A DNA stretch of 46,190 bases from Thermoplasmata archaeon (lineage in GTDB: Archaea; Thermoplasmatota; Thermoplasmata; Methanomassiliicoccales; Methanomethylophilaceae): contig SUSW01000046.1 in assembly GCA_015063235.1 (NCBI GenBank), forward strand, positions 1 through 46,190, given 5' to 3'. This document shows positions 22,851 through 37,665 of the stretch, piece after piece (the first letter of the stretch is position 1; each line of letters starts with the position of its first letter). The position numbers were made by a program, and so were the translations under genes. The notes beneath the pieces are model-generated. The model made no database searches and was not told the origin of the DNA. It worked only from the letters and a program-made list of their open reading frames with translations.

Positions 22851-23893
22851 GAGGAAATCACCTCTTCCGCCTTCTCCAGCAGCAGGGCGTTGTGCTCCGC
22901 CGTGCCGACAGTAGTCCTGACGCAGTTCTCGGTTCTGCGCTTGGCTCCGAAATCGCGGATGAGGACTCCGCGCTCCTTGAGACCGTCCACCAGGACCTTG
23001 TGGTCTATGGGAGATCTGGCCATAATGAAGTTCGAATCGGACGGGAACGTCTCGAATCCAAGCTTCCTGAGACCGGCATCTAGCTTCGGCCTCTGCTCCC
23101 TGACCATCTCCACACTCCTCCTGATGAAGTCCTGATCCTTCACGGCCGCGATGGCCGCACCCTCGCTGACCATGTTCAGGGAATAGGGTATCTTCACGCA
23201 GATCATCATGTCCGCGAGTTTCTTGTTGGTCACAGCGTATCCTACGCGCAGTGCCGCCATTGCATATGCCTTTGAGAAGGTCCTCAGGACCACCAGGTTA
23301 TCGAACTCCTCGACCCTCTTCACGAAAGGATCGTCGGAATACTCCGCATATGCCTCGTCGACCACTACTACCCCGTTGAATCTGGAAAGGACCTCCTCGA
23401 TGTCCTTCTTCCTGAAGCAATTGCCGGTCGGGTTGTTCGGCGAAGGCATGATAGCGATCTTCGCATCCTGTTTGACCATGGCATCCACGTCAAGCTGATA
23501 ATCCTCGGTGAGATCCACCTCGATGGCCTTTCCGCCGTTGAGTTTCACGAAGTAATCGTACAGCGTGTACGAAGGTACGGGCACCACCGAATTGTCGCCC
23601 ATGTTGGTGAAGGTCTTGAAAACTACATCCAGCATCTCATCGGAACCGTTTCCGGCGATGATGTTGTCGGTGTCAAGCCCGTAGAGCTCTGCAAGAGCTC
23701 CTCTGAGGCCGTCGGAATACGTATTGGGGTAACCGTTCAGATCCCAGGAGTTCTCCTTCAGATACTTCTCGGCGGCAGGATTGGAACCCAGGACATTGGT
23801 GTTGGTGTCAAGCCTCAGCTCGCCGTGCAGCTTAGGGTTGTAGTATTTGACGAAATCCCTGGTGGTGTTCCTCATCACACCTCTGTCCATCAA
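22841..23893 (-). CDS. hisC: Histidinol-phosphate aminotransferase
   Basis: 350 residues, a PLP-dependent class I/II aminotransferase that transaminates imidazole acetol phosphate. The PLP lysine lies in RTFSKAYAMAALRVGY (about residue 210), the Asn/Asp contacts in PSPNNPTG and VVVDEAY, and the cofactor phosphate contact in GNGSDEML. It overlaps the hisG stop by four bases (ATGA). Confidence 0.95.
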   Translation of the reverse strand: MMDRGVMRNTTRDFVKYYNPKLHGELRLDTNTNVLGSNPAAEKYLKENSWDLNGYPNTYSDGLRGALAELYGLDTDNIIAGNGSDEMLDVVFKTFTNMGDNSVVPVPSYTLYDYFVKLNGGKAIEVDLTEDYQLDVDAMVKQDAKIAIMPSPNNPTGNCFRKKDIEEVLSRFNGVVVVDEAYAEYSDDPFVKRVEEFDNLVVLRTFSKAYAMAALRVGYAVTNKKLADMMICVKIPYSLNMVSEGAAIAAVKDQDFIRRSVEMVREQRPKLDAGLRKLGFETFPSDSNFIMARSPIDHKVLVDGLKERGVLIRDFGAKRRTENCVRTTVGTAEHNALLLEKAEEVISSCR

Positions 23894-24753
23894 TTCACCA
23901 GCCTTTCTATCGGAGTGGTGAGGATGCCCTTGGCACCGAGCCTCTTGAGCTCCGCGATGGTCTTGAAGACTTTGTCGCCGTCCACTACTGCGTGTACGGC
24001 AAGGAACTGGTCGTTTCCTGCGATCTCCAGGACGGTGGGGCCTCCGATACCGGGAATGATCCTCTCGACCTCAGACAGCTTGTCCTTGGGAATGTCAGCC
24101 ATGATGTACTTCTTGTTCTCGGCTATGATGACGCTCTCGAACGAATCGACGATATCCTGGATGGCCTGTCCGTTCCTGGCCATCGCTGCATCGGATGTGA
24201 ACACTGCCGCCTGTGATTCTACTATGGACCCTACCTCTCTGAGCCTGTTGGTCTTGAGTGTGGATCCCGTGGATACAAGGTCTACGATGTAATCCGCTAC
24301 TCCCAGATAAGGCATGATCTCGCATGCTCCGGTCACGACTATGATCTCCATCTTCTTTCCAAGCTTCTCGAAATACTCCCTGGTGAGGTTGGGGAAGGAT
24401 GTGGCGATCTTGGCACCGTCCTTAATCTGCGATGCGTCTGTGATTCCGGATTCCTCAGGGACTGCGACAGCTAGATGGCAGAAACCGAACCTCAGATCGA
24501 GCACTTTCTTCAGATCCTTCCCCGACTCGGCGGTCTCGTCGATACCGGTGATTCCAAGATCTATGGAGCCCTCTGCTATGAAGATAGGGACATCCTGCGC
24601 CCTCACGAATATTACCTCGATGTCCTGGTTCTTGGCCTTGAGATAAAGCCTCCTTCCGATATCCTCTCCGAGATCGATACCGGACTTCGTCAGGAGCTCG
24701 ATGGTCCTTTCGTTCAGTCTTCCTTTGTTCGGCACACCTAGTTTAAGTGTCAT
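23890..24753 (-). CDS. hisG: ATP phosphoribosyltransferase, long form
   Basis: About 287 residues, the first enzyme of histidine synthesis. It joins ATP and PRPP and is the target of histidine feedback. The N-terminal GVPNKGRL, the central DLGITGIDET and the PRPP-loop region VDLVSTGSTLKTN are present. The C-terminal 75 residues are the ACT-like regulatory domain of the long HisG form, so no HisZ is needed. I prefer ATG 24753, 6 nt after GAGG, over the in-frame GTG at 24765. Confidence 0.93.
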   Translation of the reverse strand: MTLKLGVPNKGRLNERTIELLTKSGIDLGEDIGRRLYLKAKNQDIEVIFVRAQDVPIFIAEGSIDLGITGIDETAESGKDLKKVLDLRFGFCHLAVAVPEESGITDASQIKDGAKIATSFPNLTREYFEKLGKKMEIIVVTGACEIMPYLGVADYIVDLVSTGSTLKTNRLREVGSIVESQAAVFTSDAAMARNGQAIQDIVDSFESVIIAENKKYIMADIPKDKLSEVERIIPGIGGPTVLEIAGNDQFLAVHAVVDGDKVFKTIAELKRLGAKGILTTPIERLVN

Positions 24754-24806
24754 TTCAGTCCTCACCCCTAACTTATAACTTTAATATAAATAGGAATGGG
24801 ACGCCC

Positions 24807-27179
24807 TCACGCCACCCTGGTGGCCAAAGCTTTCCTGAGATCGCTCTCGTAATCAGGCACGACCGATCCGGATTCTATCAGAACATCGCCGACATGATCC
24901 ATGGCCAGATCGTTGATGGAATCGATCATCTTGGGATGGGCACCGGAAACCCTTGGATCCTCTGGATCGACTAACAGCAGGTTAAGAAAAGCCAGCTGGT
25001 CCGAATCCAGATCCTGGGCGAACCGGTCCCAGCCCTCTACAAGACTCTGGTGCCGGTCGAACCCATCAACGGACTTCTTGTTTGCATAAGGTTCCTTCGG
25101 GTTGCTGACCTTGGCATGCTCTTCGATATTTGGTTCAGACCTCTTTCCGGTGGCACCGTTACCGATATCCATGCCATCTTTTTCGATGTCCTCTCCGGTG
25201 TCCATCATCCTGGTCGTGGACGCCAGATCATCCTGGGCCGATTCTACCAACCTTTTGTCAAGCACCAGTTTCCTATCCTTCTTGGGAACGGATGCGGGCA
25301 TACCGTAGTATGACTGGGCTATCTCTCTTACGCCTTTGAAGACCGAACCGAAGACTTGGATCTCATCATCGGGCATCTTGCTTCCCGAACGATGTGCCTT
25401 GGTCATCCTAAGTACGGACCTCAGAAGCTCCTTGCAATTCTCTTCGAACAGATTACTATTCGCGTAATCATAGACGGAGACAGGATACATCACAGCATAC
25501 CCTTTGGGATAGCCGTAGTACTTCAATGTCTCGAAAACCCTGATCTTGACCGCTTTAGGCCTCAGACTGCAGTATGATGTGGCACCATTGCTGGATTTGG
25601 AATTGTTACTGGCCGCTACCAGTGCTTTGGAAAAAATCGCAGCGGCATCCGAATCGATGCTGTTCTTCATCGCCTTGGTGGCTCCGGAAAAGAACGATAC
25701 CGCCTCGGGAGAGAATGTTATGTCCGCCCCGTTCAGCAGCCTGCGCATCGAATCGTTGATGGTAAGGTTGCATGGATACTGATCATCGGTGGGAAGGGGC
25801 AGTTCCTTGACAATCGCATAATCAAGAGCGGAACGCATGATAAGATGTGCATAGTTGATGCTGAAGAAGCTTCTGTCCTCACGGATCACGGACTTCTCGT
25901 AAGCCTATCCCAAAGATACAATGGCTTGGTAGACGTCTTTGGGGTCGTCATCTGAATTGATGAGTTCGCAGAGGTACAGCCATACGTACCCCAGATCTGT
26001 GGTTGGATACTTTCCATTACGGACCTGTGTCCTCCAGTAGAGATAGAATGATCTCTGCTCCGGCGTCATCCTGCCGTATTGTGCATTCACTTTTCCAGAA
26101 GCCACGTACTGTACTCTGATATCGGACTCCAACCCGTAATTGTCCCTTATGTCTGATCTGAATGTCGCGGAGATGCTGTCCTGTTCCTTGGAATTGGGGA
26201 TTATGAGCATACCGTCCACCTGGACCTCTAACAGAGGGATGGAGTCCAGGAACTTCTCCGAAGACGGCAGCTCTTCGCATACGTGCAGATTCCTTTCTAT
26301 GATTGCACGGACCTCCTTGGTCAGTATCGAAGGGACCGTCGGTCCCTTTTCGCCGTTTGCTTTGCATATGACGCTGACGCAGCACCTGTACACCGCTTTG
26401 AGAAATGCCATCATCGGGGAATTTTCCGATACATCCCTGTACCTGAGACGGTATTCCCTCTCCCCCTCGTAGAACAGGCCTCTGAACACATCGGCCTGCG
26501 AGGACATGTGTTCGCCTCCATAGGTATCCAGGATTCCGGACCCGGTGGTGTTCTCCAAATACGAATCTATGGATGAAAGAGATTGATTGAACAGCTCGAC
26601 CAATTCATCCGATTCTCCATAACAGTATGAATCCTCATAGGATATGCCGCAGAATGCCTCCGGATCTTCGACGAATGATATGGGCTTCTGCAGCATCGAC
26701 GCACGTGAGGATATAGCCATAATATCGCTGAAATCTTCAAATCCCCTCAACGGCAAATGGAAGGCGATACATGCATCGAAGTACACGCCGTAAAGGAACG
26801 GATAGCTGTTCTTGACGGACCTCGTATTGTCAATCAGCAGCTCCAGCTGTTCTCTGAGATGCTTCCTCTCTTCGGGGATGTTTATGAGCTCGCATATGCG
26901 GATGTATTCGTAACCGTAATCGCTTTTGAGCACCGTGCCTTTGCGAAGCTGGTCCCTCCAATGGATGTAGTAACTGTACTGTTCCGCGCTCAGGCTGCGG
27001 AGGTCCGTTGAATAATCCGGACAAGGTACGAAGGGGGCCTCTGCCGGATCGGATGAGTAGGAATCCCTCATCTGCATCAGAAAATCATCGGCGGGTTGCT
27101 TATTCTTCCCCCTAGGCACTATAGTGAAAGAACGCATCGGAACCGAGTAGGCATTACCCCGTATATCATTCTGATACAA
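24807..27179 (-). CDS. TerB_N/TerB_C-type protein interrupted by an in-frame UAG (candidate pyrrolysine protein)
   Basis: Read through the TAG at 25907-25905, this is one protein of about 790 residues; stopping there gives 424 and 360-codon frames. The first TerB_N-like copy lies at about residues 63-150 and a second at about 373-475, with the UAG as codon 425 inside the second. A TerB_C-like segment (DSDQLAFLNLLL, INDLAMDHVGDVLIE) ends the chain. TerB_N and TerB_C are normally joined in one polypeptide. After the UAG the frame continues AYEKS-VIREDRSFF up to DYAIVKELPLP, matching the end of the first copy (FDACIAFHLPL). A GTG at 25889 could start a separate gene but lacks a good ribosome site and would cut the domain. 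The 5' start (TTG 27179 or ATG 27137) is uncertain. It follows pyl genes and SMR exporters on the same strand. A plain nonsense mutation is the alternative. Confidence 0.7.
25905..25907 (-). other. In-frame amber codon, possible pyrrolysine site in the TerB-like gene
   Basis: TAG lies between VSLG and AYEK in the second TerB_N-like copy, in the same frame as the coding sequence on both sides. UAG terminates none of the other 45 coding sequences called in the window, and the two other internal UAGs are the mtmB pyrrolysine codons. Confidence 0.65.
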
Positions 27180-27489
27180 GGTTCATGCCGATGACGCCTA
27201 CCAGCAGGATGCCCAGGAACAGGAATCCGATCATGTTGGGACCTTCGCCCATGATTATGCTGACTATCACAGCACCTATCGCACCGATACCTACCCAGAC
27301 GGCGTATCCGGGACCTGTGGGGATGCCCTTCTTAAAAGCGAAATGAAGGAATATCACGCTGATGGGCATAAGGAGAAGCGTCACTACTGTCCAGAACGGG
27401 TCGGTGAAGACCTCGGACAGGCTCATCGTCGTTGCCCAGCACATCTCGAATACGCCTCCGATGAGGATGTATAACCATGCGATGTTCAT
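27166..27489 (-). CDS. SMR-family exporter subunit B
   Basis: 107 residues, four membrane helices, small multidrug resistance family. The membrane-embedded proton/substrate glutamate is E15 in GGVFEMCWATTMSL. The ATG overlaps the stop of the first SMR gene (ATGA), so the two are translated together and probably form a heterodimer. The 3' end overlaps the 5' end of the TerB-like frame by 14 bp if that starts at TTG 27179. Confidence 0.88.
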   Translation of the reverse strand: MNIAWLYILIGGVFEMCWATTMSLSEVFTDPFWTVVTLLLMPISVIFLHFAFKKGIPTGPGYAVWVGIGAIGAVIVSIIMGEGPNMIGFLFLGILLVGVIGMNLVSE

Positions 27490-27815
27490 TCGATCACCGC
27501 CGATAGCTCCAATCCGACCACACCTATGATTATCAGCATCACCAGGAACACTTTGATGCGGTCCACCTTCTCCTTGAACAGCACGTATCCTGCTATCATT
27601 GCGAATACCGCTCCGAGACCGGTCCAGATGGAGTATGCTACGCCTACGCTCATCCCGTCGCCCATGGCGAATGCCAAGCATGCCGGGCTCAGGTACATGA
27701 ATACAACTGTGAAGAGCAGCCATTTCAGGGATCTGGTCTCACCGTACTTCTTCAGCCCTATGACCCAAACCGGTTCGAGCAATCCGCCGAGGATCACCCA
27801 GGCCAAACCGACCAT
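27486..27815 (-). CDS. SMR-family exporter subunit A (Gdx/SugE-like)
   Basis: 109 residues, four membrane helices, with the essential glutamate E14 in GGLLEPVWVIGLKKY. This wording is close to the SugE/Gdx subgroup, whose members export guanidinium or quaternary ammonium ions. It begins 2 bp after the pylD stop, so it is read as part of the pyl transcript. The substrate is unknown; small alkylated ammonium compounds would fit the setting but that is inference. Confidence 0.88.
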   Translation of the reverse strand: MVGLAWVILGGLLEPVWVIGLKKYGETRSLKWLLFTVVFMYLSPACLAFAMGDGMSVGVAYSIWTGLGAVFAMIAGYVLFKEKVDRIKVFLVMLIIIGVVGLELSAVIE

Positions 27816-27817
27816 GC

Positions 27818-28633
27818 TCACTTCGATACTTCCATGGAGAACAGTGCGCTGTTCACTGCCATCATGGCTGTCCCTATCTCCAGCGGATCGTGGATGATGG
27901 CCTTGGCCTTCTTCCTCCCCTCCTCGTCGAAGTAATGGGGGACTCCCGGAGTCGATATGACCGCACCCTCTTGGATGAGCCTTCCGGGGAAGATAGCAGG
28001 AGCTGCGTTGAGGATGTATCTGTGGGATGCCAGGGCATCCTCCACATCCGGCAGTGCCTTCACTCCGAACCTCTCCTCCAAGGCCTTGGCCTTCTCGGTC
28101 TTGATATCCGTGACCGAAACGTTGGCACCCCAAGATTTCAGGATCTGGACGGCTTCGGTTCCGACCAAACCTGCTCCGATAACGAGGACATCCTTTCCCT
28201 CGATGCCGCCTGCGGCGTTCTTCAAAGCGACTGCGTAACCCATCGCGGTCCCCCAAGAGTTGTTGGTGCTCCTAGCTGCGTGGACGTTGTACGCGACGAA
28301 CATCGCATCGTCTGCCATCATGACCATGTCTACACCATCCCTGATAGCCTGCTGGAATCCGTTGACATCCGTTCCGGCGGTGACATAGCTCTGCATGCCG
28401 AGTCTCCTGACGATTGCATCCACGGATTTGGAGAAGCCACCGATGATACCCATTCCCGAAGTGATGGGTACGCAAGCTACCCTCATCTTGGAGAAATCCA
28501 CGTCATGATAGACGCCAGCACCCTCCAGGGCCAGCTGTTTAACTGTCTTTCCGCACATCTTGAGCAGCCTCGAATCCAGATCCAGGGTATCGTCAGGCAC
28601 TCCTTCGATCAAATCAGGGGTGAGTCTTGTCAT
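27818..28633 (-). CDS. pylD: Pyrrolysine biosynthesis protein PylD
   Basis: 271 residues. This NAD-dependent enzyme oxidises the terminal amine of the Lys-methylornithine dipeptide, which then cyclises to pyrrolysine. The Rossmann segment VLVIGAGLVGTEAVQIL (about residues 150-166) and the N-terminal MTRLTPDLIEGV are visible. The start at 28633 overlaps the pylC stop (ATGA); the longer open frame to 28678 lies inside pylC and is rejected. Confidence 0.95.
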   Translation of the reverse strand: MTRLTPDLIEGVPDDTLDLDSRLLKMCGKTVKQLALEGAGVYHDVDFSKMRVACVPITSGMGIIGGFSKSVDAIVRRLGMQSYVTAGTDVNGFQQAIRDGVDMVMMADDAMFVAYNVHAARSTNNSWGTAMGYAVALKNAAGGIEGKDVLVIGAGLVGTEAVQILKSWGANVSVTDIKTEKAKALEERFGVKALPDVEDALASHRYILNAAPAIFPGRLIQEGAVISTPGVPHYFDEEGRKKAKAIIHDPLEIGTAMMAVNSALFSMEVSK

Positions 28634-29793
28634 CAGATCATCTCCGGGGTTCCGTCGAGGAACCTCTCTATTGAGCATTCGTCAAGTATCTTTTCGATGC
28701 AGGCGGCGGCCCTCTCGTCCGCTTCTTTCTCAGTCCTGCCCTTGGAAATGAGCGTGGCATGCCATTCGGCTTTGCCGGGCTCGTAATCAGTGATGCAGTT
28801 ATCGCTGCCGAAGAGCCCGGGGGCGAATCTCGGTGAGACCACATGGCCGAACTCCTTCTCTCCGCTGGAACGCAGCTCCCCGTCCCTCAGGTACACGTGA
28901 CGGTAGACCGAGGAACCCTCTTTTGGCTTCCTGTCGGCGGGTCTTCCCAGCGCCGTGGTCGCGAGTTCCTCCAAAAGGTTGACGCCCGTGGCGGCCTCTA
29001 TCGCCGCAGGGGTCTGGCTGGGGATACGTGCATCGATCTCCAGGACCCTTAGTCCTTTGGGGGTGAGGATGGCTTCCACATCCATCAGCGCGCTGAGGCC
29101 TATAGCATCCGCTACATCCTCCCCTATCTTGGCGAAGAGGTCGCAGTTCTCCTTTGTCATGATATTGGGATTGCATCTGACCATCTTGCAGTCGTAATTG
29201 GAATCAAGGCATACCTCTGTGGTGATGTATCCTTTGGCGGTCTTCCCGTTGCCTATGACCTCCACGGAGACGCTCTTTCCGTGCACGAACTCCTGTATCA
29301 CAGGCTCATCGTTAAGCGACTTAACAATGTCCAGACCCTTCTCCAAATCCTCTTCGTTCATCGCCACGGTCACGCCTATGCTCCCGCTCTGGGAAGACGG
29401 CTTCACGATCGCAGGGAATCCGCATTGGGGCCAAGGCTGGGGGAGCGGTACCCCCACCGATTTCATGACCTCGTTGGACCTGTTCTTCGAGTTGGAGATG
29501 TTGTAGGATGCGAGATCGAACAGAAGAGGGGCGTCCATCTTGGACTTCATGGAATCCAGCGTCTTCAGGAGGTCCATCTCCTCGCATGCCGGAATGACCG
29601 CATCGCACCCTCTGAAGACCTCCAGTGCGGCTTCGGGATCTTTGGTTGGGTCCAGATTGACCGGCTCGTCGCATAAAGACATGGCGGGTGCACCCTTCTT
29701 CCTGTCCAGGACGACCGTCTCATAGCCTGCCGCCTTGGAAAGCAGTACGGCCTCCATGCCCTGCAGGGCCCCTCCCACTATGGCGATCCTCAT
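28633..29793 (-). CDS. pylC: Pyrrolysine biosynthesis protein PylC (ATP-grasp ligase)
   Basis: 386 residues. It ligates (3R)-3-methyl-D-ornithine to the epsilon-amine of lysine with ATP. An N-terminal Rossmann-like preATP-grasp segment (RIAIVGGALQGMEAVLLSKA) is followed by ATP-grasp parts: AIVKPSSQSGSIGV (about residues 126-139), MDVEAIL and LEIDARIPSQTPAAIEA. The start at 29793 overlaps the pylB stop (ATGA). Confidence 0.95.
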   Translation of the reverse strand: MRIAIVGGALQGMEAVLLSKAAGYETVVLDRKKGAPAMSLCDEPVNLDPTKDPEAALEVFRGCDAVIPACEEMDLLKTLDSMKSKMDAPLLFDLASYNISNSKNRSNEVMKSVGVPLPQPWPQCGFPAIVKPSSQSGSIGVTVAMNEEDLEKGLDIVKSLNDEPVIQEFVHGKSVSVEVIGNGKTAKGYITTEVCLDSNYDCKMVRCNPNIMTKENCDLFAKIGEDVADAIGLSALMDVEAILTPKGLRVLEIDARIPSQTPAAIEAATGVNLLEELATTALGRPADRKPKEGSSVYRHVYLRDGELRSSGEKEFGHVVSPRFAPGLFGSDNCITDYEPGKAEWHATLISKGRTEKEADERAAACIEKILDECSIERFLDGTPEMI

Positions 29794-30848
29794 CAGGCCA
29801 CCCTCTTGGGCCTGTGGGCTTCGAGGAAGGACCTGTACTCCGCCGAGGAAGCGTGATGATGCCCCATGTCCTCCAACATCTCGAACACGTGCTCCACGGA
29901 ACGGTTTCCGTTCTCGATGTCCAGCTCGTGCTGCGCCACCCCTGCGAGATGCTGGCTGGGGGGAACGATTGACGTGACCACGTTCGCACCGGCGTTTATC
30001 CTCGTCTTGAGTCCCGCTATGCCCTCGACATCGAGGCTGCACGGAATGAGCTTATCCTGATTGAGGAGCCTCATTATGGCGATGGCCTTCAGCTCCTCCG
30101 TCGAATCATAGGGTGTGAAATCCTGCATCGGGGTGCCGACCTGGGGCACGAAGGTCATGGCCCTGACCTGTCCGCATCCCAGCGAGCTCATCTCCTGGAT
30201 GGTCTCGGCCCTGTCCCTGACGGTCTCTCCGAGGCCGATCATCATCCCGTCCTCTGCCAGAAGCCCGGCCTCCATGGCCCACGTCTTCTGGTTACGGCGG
30301 TCGTCGTAACTCTGGTTGACCCTCAGGGATTCGAAAAGCTGCCTGTTGTACGTTTCCTGGTAGCAGGCGTACCAATCAGCGCCTGCGTCGCGGACCTTCG
30401 AGAACATCTCATGGGGCAGCGCCCCGGGGGATGCCATGATGTTTATCCCTACCTCGTCATGGACCGCGGAGATTATCTCCAGCAGGTTGGCGTATCCGTC
30501 TTTGTACATAAGGGGGTCCTCGCCCATCGTGAGGTCCGAGAGGTTTATCCCTGCATCCTGAAGGCTGGCCGACAGCTCCACGATCTCTTCCTTCGTCTTC
30601 CTGTAGCGGTCTATCCCTTTGTTGGACGTCCTGTAATAGCAGAATGTGCAGTTGTTCTTGCAATATGTGGAGAAGTATACGAATCCGTATGTGAAGATCT
30701 TCTTCCCGAATTCCCTGTCCCTCACCCTTCTTGCGGCGGAGTATAGATCTTCCAGATCCTGTCCGCCTTTGATGGACATCAGTTCGAATATCTCGTCGGT
30801 AGATAGTTTTCCGGTCTTCTCAGCCTTGGAGATCGTATCAGCTATCAT
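29793..30848 (-). CDS. pylB: Pyrrolysine biosynthesis protein PylB (radical SAM lysine mutase)
   Basis: 351 residues. This radical SAM enzyme rearranges L-lysine to 3-methylornithine. The Fe-S motif is CKNNCTFCYYR (C-x3-C-x2-C, about residues 60-70), with the SAM-contact segment TMGEDPLMY (about 105) corresponding to the GGE motif. I chose ATG 30848; an in-frame TTG at 30857 overlaps the pylS stop. The short spacing shows translational coupling. Confidence 0.95.
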   Translation of the reverse strand: MIADTISKAEKTGKLSTDEIFELMSIKGGQDLEDLYSAARRVRDREFGKKIFTYGFVYFSTYCKNNCTFCYYRTSNKGIDRYRKTKEEIVELSASLQDAGINLSDLTMGEDPLMYKDGYANLLEIISAVHDEVGINIMASPGALPHEMFSKVRDAGADWYACYQETYNRQLFESLRVNQSYDDRRNQKTWAMEAGLLAEDGMMIGLGETVRDRAETIQEMSSLGCGQVRAMTFVPQVGTPMQDFTPYDSTEELKAIAIMRLLNQDKLIPCSLDVEGIAGLKTRINAGANVVTSIVPPSQHLAGVAQHELDIENGNRSVEHVFEMLEDMGHHHASSAEYRSFLEAHRPKRVA

Positions 30849-30853
30849 GTGAA

Positions 30854-31675
30854 TCAATCCAGTTTGTATCCGTTCAGATAGGTTATGCTCTTACCTGTCT
30901 TCTTGGCGTTGCTCTTGCCGTTCTTCAGCATGAGCAGCCTCTCCAGACCGAACCCGACCCCTGCCCAGGGCTCATGGATGTCATGCGCAGGGTCCAGCCT
31001 GTGGGGACCGATGGCTCCCGATGCGACCTCGACACCGTCTATCTCCACATCCAAAGTCTCGACGTACACGTCGGACTCCTCGCGTGTGGTGGTATATTCG
31101 ACACCCACTGCATCCATAATGTCGCCGATGTACATCTTGAGATGCTCCATGGCATCACCGTCAGGACCGAGCTCCACCAGATTAAGCATTGTGAACTCCT
31201 CCAGATGCGTAGAGCTCTTGGACTCCTTCCTGAAGCATGAGCCTATCTCGAATATCCTCACCGGACCGTTAGTATGGTCCCTGAGCTCCCTCATGACCCT
31301 GTACAGGTTCATGGCGTGCATGGGCCTGAGGGCCCTCTTGTCATCGATCCAGAACACCTGTCTGAACAGAGGGTGATCCTCTGTGATCGTCATCTTGGCC
31401 AATGCTGCCTTGGAAACGAAGATGGGTGTGTGAACCTCGATGAATCCCCTCGCCCTCAGCTTGTCCCTGATCCTGTTCTCCAGATCCGTGAGATCGTTGC
31501 GGGGATTCGCGATGACGTCCTTGAGACCTTTGTCGTTCGCGGACTTCAGTTTGGAGAACTGGCTCGAGAACTCCTTGTCCCTCTGTACAGCATCTTCGAA
31601 TTCCGTTGCAGACCAATCGCTATCTCCGTACTCCATCAGATGCTGAATCTGAGAATCCGTGAACTTCAAACCCAT
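30854..31675 (-). CDS. pylS: Pyrrolysyl-tRNA synthetase lacking the N-terminal domain
   Basis: 273 residues, only the class II catalytic domain. It charges tRNA-Pyl with pyrrolysine. Motif 2 (IFEIGSCFRKES) and motif 3 (GVGFGLERLLML, near residue 238) are clear. The separate N-terminal tRNA-binding domain of Methanosarcina PylS is absent, and no free PylSn gene is in the window. This is the solo form known from Methanomassiliicoccales. The ATG lies 20 nt after the 3' end of tRNA-Pyl. Confidence 0.96.
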   Translation of the reverse strand: MGLKFTDSQIQHLMEYGDSDWSATEFEDAVQRDKEFSSQFSKLKSANDKGLKDVIANPRNDLTDLENRIRDKLRARGFIEVHTPIFVSKAALAKMTITEDHPLFRQVFWIDDKRALRPMHAMNLYRVMRELRDHTNGPVRIFEIGSCFRKESKSSTHLEEFTMLNLVELGPDGDAMEHLKMYIGDIMDAVGVEYTTTREESDVYVETLDVEIDGVEVASGAIGPHRLDPAHDIHEPWAGVGFGLERLLMLKNGKSNAKKTGKSITYLNGYKLD

Positions 31676-31695
31676 GATATCTACCGTAAATGTAA

Positions 31696-31766
31696 TGGCG
31701 AAAGGCCGGGGGGTCGAACCCCGCTTACAGGTTTTAGAGACCCGTTTGCTCGCCGGAGCGCCCTCC
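31696..31766 (-). tRNA. pylT: tRNA-Pyl (anticodon CUA)
   Basis: 71 nt with CCA encoded. It folds into a 7-bp acceptor stem (GGAGGGC with GCCTTTC, two G-U pairs), a D-arm GCTC-CGGC-GAGC with a 4-nt loop and no base between acceptor and D stems, a 6-bp anticodon stem (ACGGGT with ACCTGT) around CTCTAAA with anticodon CTA, a 3-nt variable loop, and a T-arm CGGGG-TTCGACC-CCCCG. The long anticodon stem, short variable loop and missing junction base identify the pyrrolysine suppressor tRNA of Methanomassiliicoccales. It decodes UAG. Confidence 0.97.
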
Positions 31767-31791
31767 AACATGGGTTAAAGTCCAACATTTG

Positions 31792-32005: not shown

Positions 32006-33388
32006 TCAGAAATCGATTCCGCAGTCGGAAAGCTTGCTGAGGGCATTCTCGTATACATCCAGATATTCATCGGTAGGCTGGATGTTATCTAGATCGTAGC
32101 ATTCCTGGAACGTCTTGCCTTTTGGCGGGTTGTAGTAGTTGACCTCGTACTCGCCGAGGATACGGTCGATGATGTTGTTTGCATCAGAGATGTCCATGCC
32201 GCATGCGGCCATAGATGCCTCGCCCATCATACGCGCCTCCATGGCCGAGACCTTGTTCTTGACGACACCTTTAGCCGAAGCGACCCCGGACAGAAGCTCT
32301 CTGCCGGAAGCGGTATCGCATATCGCCTGTGCAGCGGTCTCGAGGAGATTCATGACGGTACATGGCCCTGCCATCGCATAATACTGATTGCCCAGAAGGA
32401 GATCGGTGTTGGTATCCAGCGCCATAGCGGTATGGGCCGCCACCTGCAGGGACTGACGGTTGGTCGTGGTCCCCCATCTGACATGGATCGGGCCACCGAG
32501 ATGAATATCGGCGTTGAGGAGTGCGAAAGATGCAATCGTGGTGGCGATATCGCAGATCGCAGTCTCCTCCACGCCTCCGCAGTATCCACCGATGATCGGC
32601 ATCTGTTCCACCAGGATGTTGTTTCCTGCGAGATGCCATGCGGATATCACGTTCATCATAGCCATATCCACCTTCATCTCGTTCAGCTGGGAGCATTCAT
32701 GCAGATCGGAGTGCTTCATCCCCAGCTGGTCCTGCAGGTTCGCCACGATACGTCCCTGGGCGGTCAGCGGGGTTTGCGGACCCTAGATGGCCATCCCGGG
32801 CCTTCCTGCCTCGTACAGAGCGTTGTGGACATAGTTCAGCTCCCCCAGGGTCGCCCTGACCTCCCAGGGGGTGTTCTTCACAGAATGATGTCCCTTGACC
32901 GATTCGAGCACACCGCTGACGATGGTATCCACGACAGGCTCCTGAGCATAAGATTCTATGACTGTAGCGTATATGTCCTCGGAAACCGGAGCGCCTGTAG
33001 GTCCGCCCTCGATGATGGGCTTGTTGATGCTGTTGCCTCTGCGCTGGAAGCACTCGACCATGTCCTTCCCCTCGCCGAGCCTGAGGGTCTTGGGAGCCAT
33101 CTTCAGGCCTTCGTAGATCTCATCCTCGGAGATCTTCATGCGGGTACCGGTATTGATGTTGTATATGCCGGTGGTGATCAGCATATCGATGCCGGCTACA
33201 AAGAGACGGTCCACGAGATCCTGATCCTCCGGAAGGATATTGGATCCGAACTTGATATCGTAACGTTTCTTCATGAGAGACGCGTTGTTGGGAATAATGG
33301 TGTAATCCCAATCCGATTCAGATATATGTTCCCCGTCGATGAAACGGTTGTATGCCTCGAAAACATCGACGTATCTGCGTGCAGTCAT
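32006..33388 (-). CDS. mtmB2: Monomethylamine methyltransferase MtmB, second copy, with pyrrolysine codon
   Basis: 460 residues with UAG as codon 202 (32785-32783), in the context RPGMAI-O-GPQTPL, which matches the known MtmB pyrrolysine site. MtmB moves the methyl group of monomethylamine to the MtmC corrinoid. Family landmarks after the Pyl residue include ECSQLNEMK, VEQMPIIGGY, GPIHVRWG and GKTFQECYDLDNI. It is clearly divergent from the copy at 36226 and lacks its C-terminal 19-residue tail. It has no corrinoid-protein gene of its own, so it must share MtmC or use another carrier. AAGGAG precedes the ATG. A different amine specificity is possible. Confidence 0.93.
32783..32785 (-). other. 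In-frame UAG (pyrrolysine) of the second mtmB
   Basis: CTA on the plus strand; homology to MtmB continues on both sides. Position 202 is the same as in the mtmB copy at 36226. Confidence 0.95.
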
Positions 33389-35572: not shown

Positions 35573-36211
35573 ATGTCAAACGAAGAGATTCTGGAGAATC
35601 TGAAAAAATCGGTCGAGACTTGGAACATCAAGCTCGCACAGGAAGCAACACAGGCCGCAATCGACGCAAAGATGAGCATCGGAGACATCATCGGACTCGG
35701 ACTTGGAAAGGGAATGGAGACCATCGGACTCAGGTTCGACAAGGCAGAGATCTACCTACCCCAGGTCGTTGCAGCGTCAAAGACCATGGAAGCCGCACTC
35801 AATATCCTCAAGCCCCTCATGGAGTCGGGAGAGGGAAACCTCAAGGGAACTGTTGTCATGGGAACAGTCGAGGGAGACATCCACGAGATTGGAAAAAACG
35901 TCTGCTGCGCCATGCTGAGAGGTGCAGGGTACAACGTTATTGATCTCGGCCCTGACGCATCCGCGATGGATTTCATGGATGCTGCAGAGGAGAACAACGC
36001 TCAGGTCTGCGGAGGATCCGCACTCATGACCACCACTCTCGAATCACAGAGGGAGCTCGTAGAGACCATCAAGGAAATGGAAGCTCCATACAAGGCGATC
36101 TTCGGAGGAGCACCCTGCTCTAAGGAGTGGTGCGACGAGATCGGAGCGGACGGATACTCTGAGACTGCAAACGAAATCATCCTGCTGGTCGACCAGCTCA
36201 CCGGGAACTGA
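35573..36211 (+). CDS. mtmC: Monomethylamine corrinoid protein MtmC
   Basis: 212 residues. It carries the methyl group on its corrinoid between MtmB and the methylcobamide:CoM methyltransferase. The cobalt-binding motif is D102-x-H104-x-x-G (EGDIHEIGKN). The N-terminal helical cap (about residues 5-85) and Rossmann domain (about 90-210) are complete. GGAGG 8 nt before the ATG is an excellent ribosome site, in keeping with high expression. mtmB follows 14 bp later. No mtbA lies beside it. Confidence 0.93.
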   Translation: MSNEEILENLKKSVETWNIKLAQEATQAAIDAKMSIGDIIGLGLGKGMETIGLRFDKAEIYLPQVVAASKTMEAALNILKPLMESGEGNLKGTVVMGTVEGDIHEIGKNVCCAMLRGAGYNVIDLGPDASAMDFMDAAEENNAQVCGGSALMTTTLESQRELVETIKEMEAPYKAIFGGAPCSKEWCDEIGADGYSETANEIILLVDQLTGN

Positions 36212-36225
36212 TTGGAGGCTAATTA

Positions 36226-37665
36226 ATGGCAGCAACCAGATTCCTTACAGTAACTGACGTTTACGAGAGATTCCTCAAGGGAAAGAAAGTTCCCGAGGCG
36301 GACTGGGATTACAAGATCATCCCCGAGACCGCCACAGCCATGAAGGAGAAGTACAAGCTCGACTTCGGCAACAAGTTCATCCCTGAGGACAACGAGACAA
36401 AGAACAACCTGTTCGCAGCAGGAATGGACATGCTGTGCACATGCGGATTCTACTGCCAGGACCTCGGCCGTGTAATGAAGTTCATGAAAGAGGAAATCTG
36501 GGAGGGAATCAAGAGGGCAGACAAAAAGCTGATCCTCGGAGAGGGAAGGGACATCGCAAGGTTCTACCCCAGACACGGAAACGCACCTATCAAGCCCGTC
36601 ATCCAAGGAGGACCTACAGGATCACCTGTATCCGAAGACGTCTTTGTGCAGCTCATGCAGTCCTACGCACAGGAGGGAATCGTTGACGACCTCGTTAACG
36701 GAGTCATGACGACAGTAGAAGGAAAACCTGCTAAGTCCAAGACACCTTACGAAATCCGTGCAACAATGCAGGAGCTCAGGGCTACAAAGGAAGCAAGGAC
36801 CAGGGCCCAGAGGCCCGGACTCGGCGTATAGGGACCTGAGACACCTCTGTCCGAAGCAGCACGTCTCGTCGCAGACTGCCCCAACGCAGGACACAGGATC
36901 ACAGACGCCCACGAGTGCTCTCAGCTCAACGAGCTGAAGATGGATATGACCGGATTGAACATGCTTGCAGGCTGGACAATCTCCGGAGACACCATCATGA
37001 TCGAGCAGATGCCCATCTTCGGCGGATACTGCGGTAACCTCGAGGAGACAGCGATATGTGATACAGCGACAACACTTGCATCCTTCGGACTGTTCTCCGG
37101 TAACTTCCACCTGGACGGACCTATCCACATCAGGTGGGGAACGACCATGGCCAGAGAGACCTTGGCTGTAGCAGGACACGCCTGCGCGGCTATCGACAAC
37201 AACACTGACCTGCTCCTCGCGAACCAGTACTACCCCGTTGCAGGACCCTGCACGGAGATGGGACTCATCGAGACCGCAGCTCAGGCAATCTGTGATACCG
37301 CATCCGGAAGAGAGCTCCTCTCAGGATCCGCAGTCGCAAAGGGAGTCGTACAGGACAAGATCACCGGAATGGAAGCACGTATGATGGGAGAGGCAGCAGC
37401 CCAGACAGCAGGAATGAAGATCGATGAGGTCAACGACCTGCTCCTCAAATTCGTGGACTGGTACGAGCCTCAGTACACCAGCGCAGACCTCGGAAAGACA
37501 TTCCAGGAGTGTTACGACGTCAAGACCGTCAGGCCCACCAAGGAGTACCTCGAGGTCTACGACAACGCCAAGAAGCGCATGGCAGACTGGGGATTCGAGA
37601 TCACCAACTACAACTCCGGTGTTATGTACGGAGGATATGACGATCCGAAGAACTACAGATACTGA
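36226..37665 (+). CDS. mtmB: Monomethylamine methyltransferase MtmB with pyrrolysine codon
   Basis: 479 residues, with UAG as codon 202 (36829-36831) in RPGLGV-O-GPETPL. It demethylates monomethylamine onto MtmC, and the Pyl residue activates the amine. The landmarks ECSQLNELK, IEQMPIFGGY, GPIHIRWGTT and GKTFQECYDVKTV match characterised MtmB proteins. It has a C-terminal extension of about 19 residues rich in Tyr, Gly and Asn that the other copy lacks. It is flanked by mtmC upstream and by a structured intergenic element and ramA downstream. It ends in TGA. Confidence 0.97.
36829..36831 (+). other. In-frame UAG (pyrrolysine) of mtmB
   Basis: The codon stands between GLGV and GPET, at residue 202, the known pyrrolysine position of MtmB. 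Confidence 0.97.

Follow-up and report, generated by a model that had tools for sequence, protein, structure and literature searches.

Within the window, a stretch of 46,190 nucleotides from a Thermoplasmata archaeon of the family Methanomethylophilaceae that was analysed at its full length, a gene similar to sngA of the Shango system contains an in-frame TAG, and the corresponding UAG codon is very probably read as pyrrolysine (Pyl). The explanation favoured here, and held with high confidence, is that the gene encodes one full-length SngA-like protein with the order TerB_N–TerB_N–TerB_C, in which UAG codon 411 would be translated as Pyl with a nearly neutral effect. A SngA-type, possibly anti-phage, protein would thus join the candidate pyrrolysine proteins. 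The window is contig 47 of a genome of 1,782,499 bp in 54 contigs (G000), which is 87% complete.

The gene lies on the minus strand, in a frame of 791 codons that runs from 27179 to 24807. The TAG at 25907-25905 is the sole stop in this frame before the last codon, in agreement with the original prediction that the same frame continues on both sides of it. The ATG at 27137 is likely to be the start in preference to the TTG at 27179, because it sits at the aligned position in both orthologues described below. From this ATG to its terminal TGA, the gene covers 24807..27137 and would encode 776 residues if UAG stands for one residue. The TAG (25905..25907, minus strand) is then codon 411, or codon 425 when counting from the TTG. 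Neither TAA, TGA nor a frameshift is found within the gene, and the chance of 365 codons without TAA or TGA 3' of the TAG is approximately 1e-5 by base composition. GC3 is 0.634 before the TAG and 0.625 after it. In terms of fold energy, the region 3' of the TAG is not unusual (z=0.43), and the same holds for both mtmB genes in the window, with z=-0.63 and 0.17. A PYLIS-like element 3' of the TAG was rejected on this fold energy; such a feature is not obligatory for Pyl proteins.

The protein contains two matches to TerB_N (PF13208), at 26682..27110 and 25890..26168 on the minus strand. The second, which includes the TAG, is the better of the two, covering residues 324-416 of 776 with 82.9 bits against a cut-off of 25, so the earlier assignment of a TerB_N domain that crosses the UAG holds. 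The two copies had also been described as equal in length, yet they comprise 79 residues (EQYSYY to LPL) and 89 residues (EQRSFY to LPL), respectively. TerB_N and TerB_C had been noted as usual partners on one polypeptide; here, the C-terminal match to PF15615 (24840..25283, minus strand; residues 619-766) is weak, with 19.8 bits, and lies below the curated cut-off of 26.3. The PADLOC model of SngA (PDLC03958) matches the C-terminal half of the protein with E=1.3e-46 (24828..26084, minus strand), extending over residues 366-784 of the 790-aa frame and, like the second TerB_N match, across the TAG, here at 425. NCBIfam assigns no family to this protein. The predicted structure of the read-through protein, based on a three-row alignment, is poor (mean pLDDT 45.3, pTM 0.29); in this model, a helix at 399-414 is predicted at the TAG, and the last part of the TerB_C-like domain is modelled best.

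Shango comprises three genes (SngABC), whose products have TerB, ATPase, and helicase domains, and it shows a modest anti-phage effect on plates, according to the part of PMC10250203 considered here. The window gene resembles its SngA through the PADLOC match. Unlike in the Shango operon, there is no SngB or SngC beside it (SngB and SngC of its own genome, used as tblastn queries, gave no match in the window at E 1e-4), a UAG lies inside the gene, and the neighbourhood consists of pyl and his genes. The same genome has sngABC elsewhere, on contig 51 (SngA 8.1e-35, SngB 1.8e-146, SngC 1.1e-206), where SngA likewise has two TerB_N matches, and SngB is present in 31 of the 31 genomes of the genus. 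The window gene is to be regarded as an orphan, fast-evolving homologue of SngA, and its similarity to SngA suggests a possible role in anti-phage defence.

The machinery required for Pyl is encoded upstream, on the same strand, as a complete set of pylT, pylS, pylB, pylC, and pylD, in which the four protein-coding genes all score above curated cut-offs. Adjacent to the SngA-like gene is SMR-type small transporter gene 2 (27166..27486), followed by SMR-type gene 1 (27486..27860; its start is not settled, and this stretch was used as a query), pylD (27818..28678; TIGR03911), the pylC ORF (28633..30042; TIGR03909 from ORF residue 85), pylB (29793..30857; TIGR03910), and the pylS ORF (30854..31771; TIGR02367). 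The start of pylC is probably further in, near 29820. The tRNA-Pyl gene pylT, with the anticodon CUA, was located by ARAGORN at 31696..31766. Since the longest pylS ORF begins upstream of pylT and contains it, the true pylS start probably also lies further in; pylS ORFs are about 273 aa long in several relatives. Two mtmB genes with an in-frame TAG, at 32006..33388 on the minus strand and 36226..37665 on the plus strand, served as positive controls for Pyl. The genome as a whole contains three full-length mtmB matches with one TAG each, and a fourth match is a fragment of 127 positions at a contig end, with no TAG. For aRF1, there is one full-length match and one partial match below the cut-off. 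On the downstream side, hisG (23890..24765, minus strand) marks the insertion site and is accompanied by hisC.

To describe the use of TAG beyond this gene, a sample consisting of the window and 20 further stretches (360,779 of 1,782,499 bp) was considered, in which a codon-usage score was used to select ORFs with 100 codons or more. Because this filter requires 100 codons before a TAG, internal TAGs are undercounted. The 274 ORFs kept end in TGA (242), TAA (24), or TAG (8). Seven of the eight TAG-ended frames continue for 39-365 codons, and the eighth, a MIP-like gene (L049), for 6 codons. The first 30 codons past the stop reach the coding score in five of eight TAG cases versus 14 of 266 TAA or TGA cases (Fisher p=4.6e-5); the three TAG cases below it are LeuA (just below), the aldo-keto reductase, and MIP (too short). 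Six of the eight have a family match that extends across the TAG, namely the two MtmB, a LeuA-like protein (L035 4514-6085), a Na/Pi cotransporter-PhoU protein (L043 1507-3180), an aldo-keto reductase-ferredoxin protein with a Fer4 domain (L047 1203-2327), and the SngA-like gene. For the seventh TAG-through frame (L033 8191-8919), no family was matched. The TAG of the MIP-like gene may be a real terminator; its similarity to a sequence of the relative G024 ends at residue 127 of 182, and consequently the end of this ORF is doubtful. TAG-through frames are rare, at seven per 97,947 sampled ORF codons.

Comparison with related genomes places this usage in context. The Na/Pi-PhoU gene of G024 (L073 18196-19869) has its TAG at the same codon as that of G000, with 81.5% identity between the two and 85.0% after the common TAG. 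One mtmB TAG is also at the same codon in both genomes, with 77.5% identity after it, and the LeuA TAG of G000 corresponds to an Ala codon in G024. TAG ends 6 of 283 ORFs in the G024 sample, with coding-like sequence beyond it in 4 of 6; the corresponding values are 12 of 256 and 2 of 12 in G013, 34 of 212 and 5 of 34 in G026 (L152-L171), and 33 of 254 and 1 of 33 in G047, which belongs to another family of the order. These counts indicate that TAG is a sense codon in the G000 and G024 samples, mostly a stop in G026, and intermediate in G013. Stop usage therefore differs inside one genus, with 34 of 212 ORFs ending in TAG in G026 against 8 of 274 in G000, 7 of which run on. With internal controls, the analysis shows G000 to treat UAG as sense, while G026, placed in the same genus, still has it as a stop. 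A report in Science from 2025 is said to describe archaea that read all TAG codons as Pyl; the G000 and G024 samples, nearly devoid of TAG terminators and with TAG as a general sense codon, resemble such a code.

Of 30 further genomes assigned to the genus, only two have close orthologues of the SngA-like gene, G026 (41% identity) and G024 (38%), and the next best match has 30%. A scan of genome contigs returned the same two orthologues only, in records of a sheep-rumen Methanomethylophilaceae MAG and a Thermoplasmata MAG. Both match SngA in PADLOC, and each contains a single TAG, at a codon different from that of G000 and from that of the other, without any further internal stop. A Pyl site conserved among the orthologues was rejected on account of these differing positions; the column of the window TAG is AAG in G024 and GCC in G026. 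The original prediction had proposed an alignment of homologues across the TAG codon. In this alignment, 15 homologues are unbroken through the TAG column, where K, R, A, D, N, E, and S occur and W never does. The suggested decay route from TGG to TAG was rejected, as none of these 15 homologues has Trp there and the syntenic orthologue (G024) has Lys, encoded by AAG.

The gene order pylTSBCD-SMR-SMR-gene-hisG-hisC is identical in G000 and G024. The products of the neighbouring genes (pyl, SMR, hisG, hisC, hisA) are 70-95% identical between the two genomes, versus 36-38% for the SngA-like protein. The orthologue of G026 is on a different contig from pylD. Among nine genomes examined at the SMR-hisG junction, the gene is present in G000 and G024 and absent in G003, G007, G009, G012, G018, G022, and G030. 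The junction between SMR gene 2 and hisG (24766-27165 in the window; L112) is variable, with a 215-aa ORF in G012, and in G003, G009, G018, and G030 it is too short for any gene. By its distribution and divergence, the SngA-like gene is best described as accessory and fast-changing. Between G000 and G024, codon positions 1, 2, and 3 are identical in 56, 63, and 40% of cases before the TAG and 47, 55, and 36% after it; between G000 and G026, the values are 54, 61, and 40% before and 52, 59, and 40% after. Conservation by codon position persists 3' of the TAG and is somewhat weaker there. Protein identity before and after the TAG is 41.4% versus 33.5% for G024 and 41.8% versus 37.4% for G026.

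In the proposed mechanism, the tRNA encoded by pylT, 4.6 kb upstream, would read UAG codon 411 as Pyl. UAG would in practice be a sense codon in G000, so that the second TerB_N domain could accept a TAG substitution at one of its variable positions. The TAG may have arisen by a single substitution in a fast-evolving accessory gene, for example from AAG (Lys), the residue of the syntenic orthologue. Pyl would most likely stand in for a polar residue with almost no effect on the protein, and would not be catalytic. Its insertion and neutrality are proposed on top of the observed frame, domain crossing, pyl genes, TAG pattern, and two-sided conservation. In Methanosarcina, the tRNA-His guanylyltransferase reportedly acquired Pyl by neutral evolution, and that protein is said to have been tested experimentally. 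The window gene would be similar in having Pyl at a tolerated position outside the methyltransferases, with the difference that it is predicted from sequence alone.

Decoding as Pyl has to be weighed against decay of the gene, that is, a recent nonsense mutation in a weakly constrained accessory gene of defence type, which would be truncated at the TAG and whose 3' part is no longer useful. The accessory and fast-evolving character of the gene agrees with decay, as do its much lower identity to the syntenic orthologue compared with the neighbours, its absence from the junction in seven of nine genomes, a low codon-usage score before the TAG (0.20 bits per codon), the fall in orthologue identity after it, and an in-frame TGA in a homologue from G011. 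Decay is nevertheless unlikely: the gene is free of TAA, TGA, and frameshifts, codon position 3 is still the least conserved of the three past the TAG, and a single TAG is the only internal stop in the gene and in each of the two orthologues. Moreover, in a genome that encodes tRNA-Pyl and hardly ever terminates at TAG, this codon need not be inactivating. The situation may differ in G026, which uses TAG as an ordinary stop, and there the TAG of the orthologue could consequently truncate the protein. A deliberate use of partial UAG decoding, with truncated and full-length forms that report the Pyl (methylamine) state in a Pyl-gated manner, would fit the linkage of the gene to pyl in G000 and G024 and the occurrence of TAG in all three genes of the orthologue group despite the rarity of such frames. 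It is very unlikely, as the TAG positions differ among the three orthologues, so that truncation points are not conserved, and the orthologue and pylD of G026 are on different contigs. The near-absence of TAG terminators in the G000 sample also suggests efficient decoding.

Two further possibilities concern the integrity of the frame itself. Termination at the UAG followed by a restart at GTG 25889, which begins 16 bases past the last base of the TAG, would yield an N-terminal protein of 410 residues and a C-terminal protein of approximately 360 residues. This break would disrupt a TerB_N domain as well as a SngA match. No homologue was seen split at this place among 36 ORFs of the family, although 8 of these have fewer than 730 codons and were not all inspected one by one; such a split gene is highly improbable. 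An error of assembly or sequencing might be considered in a genome of 54 contigs and 87% completeness, but random errors would produce TAA, TGA, and frameshifts as well, while the sample contains seven TAG-through frames, two of which (Na/Pi-PhoU and mtmB) are common to the independent genome G024. This leaves an error with next to no probability. The original prediction of UAG decoded as Pyl and a full-length product is thereby well supported at the sequence level, through pylTSBCD, the few TAG terminators, the TAG genes outside the methyltransferases, one of them with its TAG conserved in a relative, and homologues that run unbroken through this place.

The earlier expectation that Pyl outside the methyltransferases would be unusual fails for this group, where many other candidates have been described in the consulted parts of PMC4153887 and PMC5011839. 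For 'Ca. Methanomethylophilus alvus', 16 non-methyltransferase Pyl proteins, including Cas1, were predicted, with 1.6% TAG stops (Borrel 2014, PMC4153887), and in ISO4-H5, amber codons occur in 46 genes, among them Cas3 (PMC5011839), as given in those parts. Both organisms are similar to G000 in belonging to the same methanogen order and in having a pyl operon and in-frame TAG codons in varied genes, and their Pyl proteins are likewise sequence-based predictions in these accounts. Defence genes with TAG are represented by Cas1 in alvus and Cas3 in ISO4-H5. A TerB or SngA protein is not named in section 12 and Table 7 of Borrel (PMC4153887) or in the consulted part of the ISO4-H5 report (PMC5011839), and a literature search on pyrrolysine with TerB returned nothing apparently relevant. 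Pyl outside the methyltransferases has thus already been predicted in related methanogens, and the relative of SngA is a new predicted example. Standard annotation would split the SngA-like and similar genes and may label them as pseudogenes.

TAG codons also occur elsewhere in the SngA family, for which 36 distinct ORFs were collected from fetched loci. A TAG is placed inside the aligned region in 6 of the 36: the three members of the orthologue group (G000, G024, and G026) and three SngA genes from Shango operons (G013, G015, and G023). In addition, TAGs occur downstream of a possible start codon in L030, L032, and L117, while the TAG of L002 and of L027 precedes the first Met. The Shango-operon SngA of L119 (G013), L120 (G023), and L118 (G015), which are 46-80% identical, have their TAG at one common column, immediately before the conserved motif G[YF]xWL or a PF variant of it, and SngB then follows. 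The TAG of the G024 orthologue is at the same column. This column is Tyr in G014, which is 63-66% identical to two of the three, and also Tyr in G000, where it is encoded by TAC, one base from TAG. It is a candidate conserved Pyl site in SngA, and the UAG common to the Shango SngA of three species is well suited to test whether Pyl outside the methyltransferases is under selection or simply tolerated. A SngA homologue in L115 (G011 contig 14, 2980-3771) has an in-frame TGA at a column that is mostly Trp in relatives, and this may reflect a broken gene, an error, or another form of recoding. Members of the family can consequently be broken, which counts against a TAG-only rule. Rows with a TGA inside were also obtained for contig 51 of G000 and for G003, G005, and G009; in that of G000, the one checked, the TGA is the natural end.

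A broader link between Pyl decoding and the Shango-type defence module, in which SngA-like proteins acquire and keep UAG, could be considered because the orphan gene lies beside pyl in G000 and G024, because three Shango SngA with identities down to 46% have a common UAG, and because a pair formed by a SngA end and a SngB-like gene adjoins mtm-pyl genes in five genomes. This link is very improbable. If it were true, the full-length defence protein would be made only in a Pyl-decoding cell, which would act as a gate, or as a barrier that keeps mobile elements and hosts of standard code from using the protein.

In the five genomes in question, a gene for a SngB-like ATPase adjoins a homologue of the window ORF 35573-36211, an mtmB with TAG, and pyl genes (L174 in G026, L175 in G001, L176 in G017, L177 in G029, and L178 in G025). 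The gene before the SngB-like ATPase has a SngA-type C-terminus in all four loci tested, that is, all but L178.
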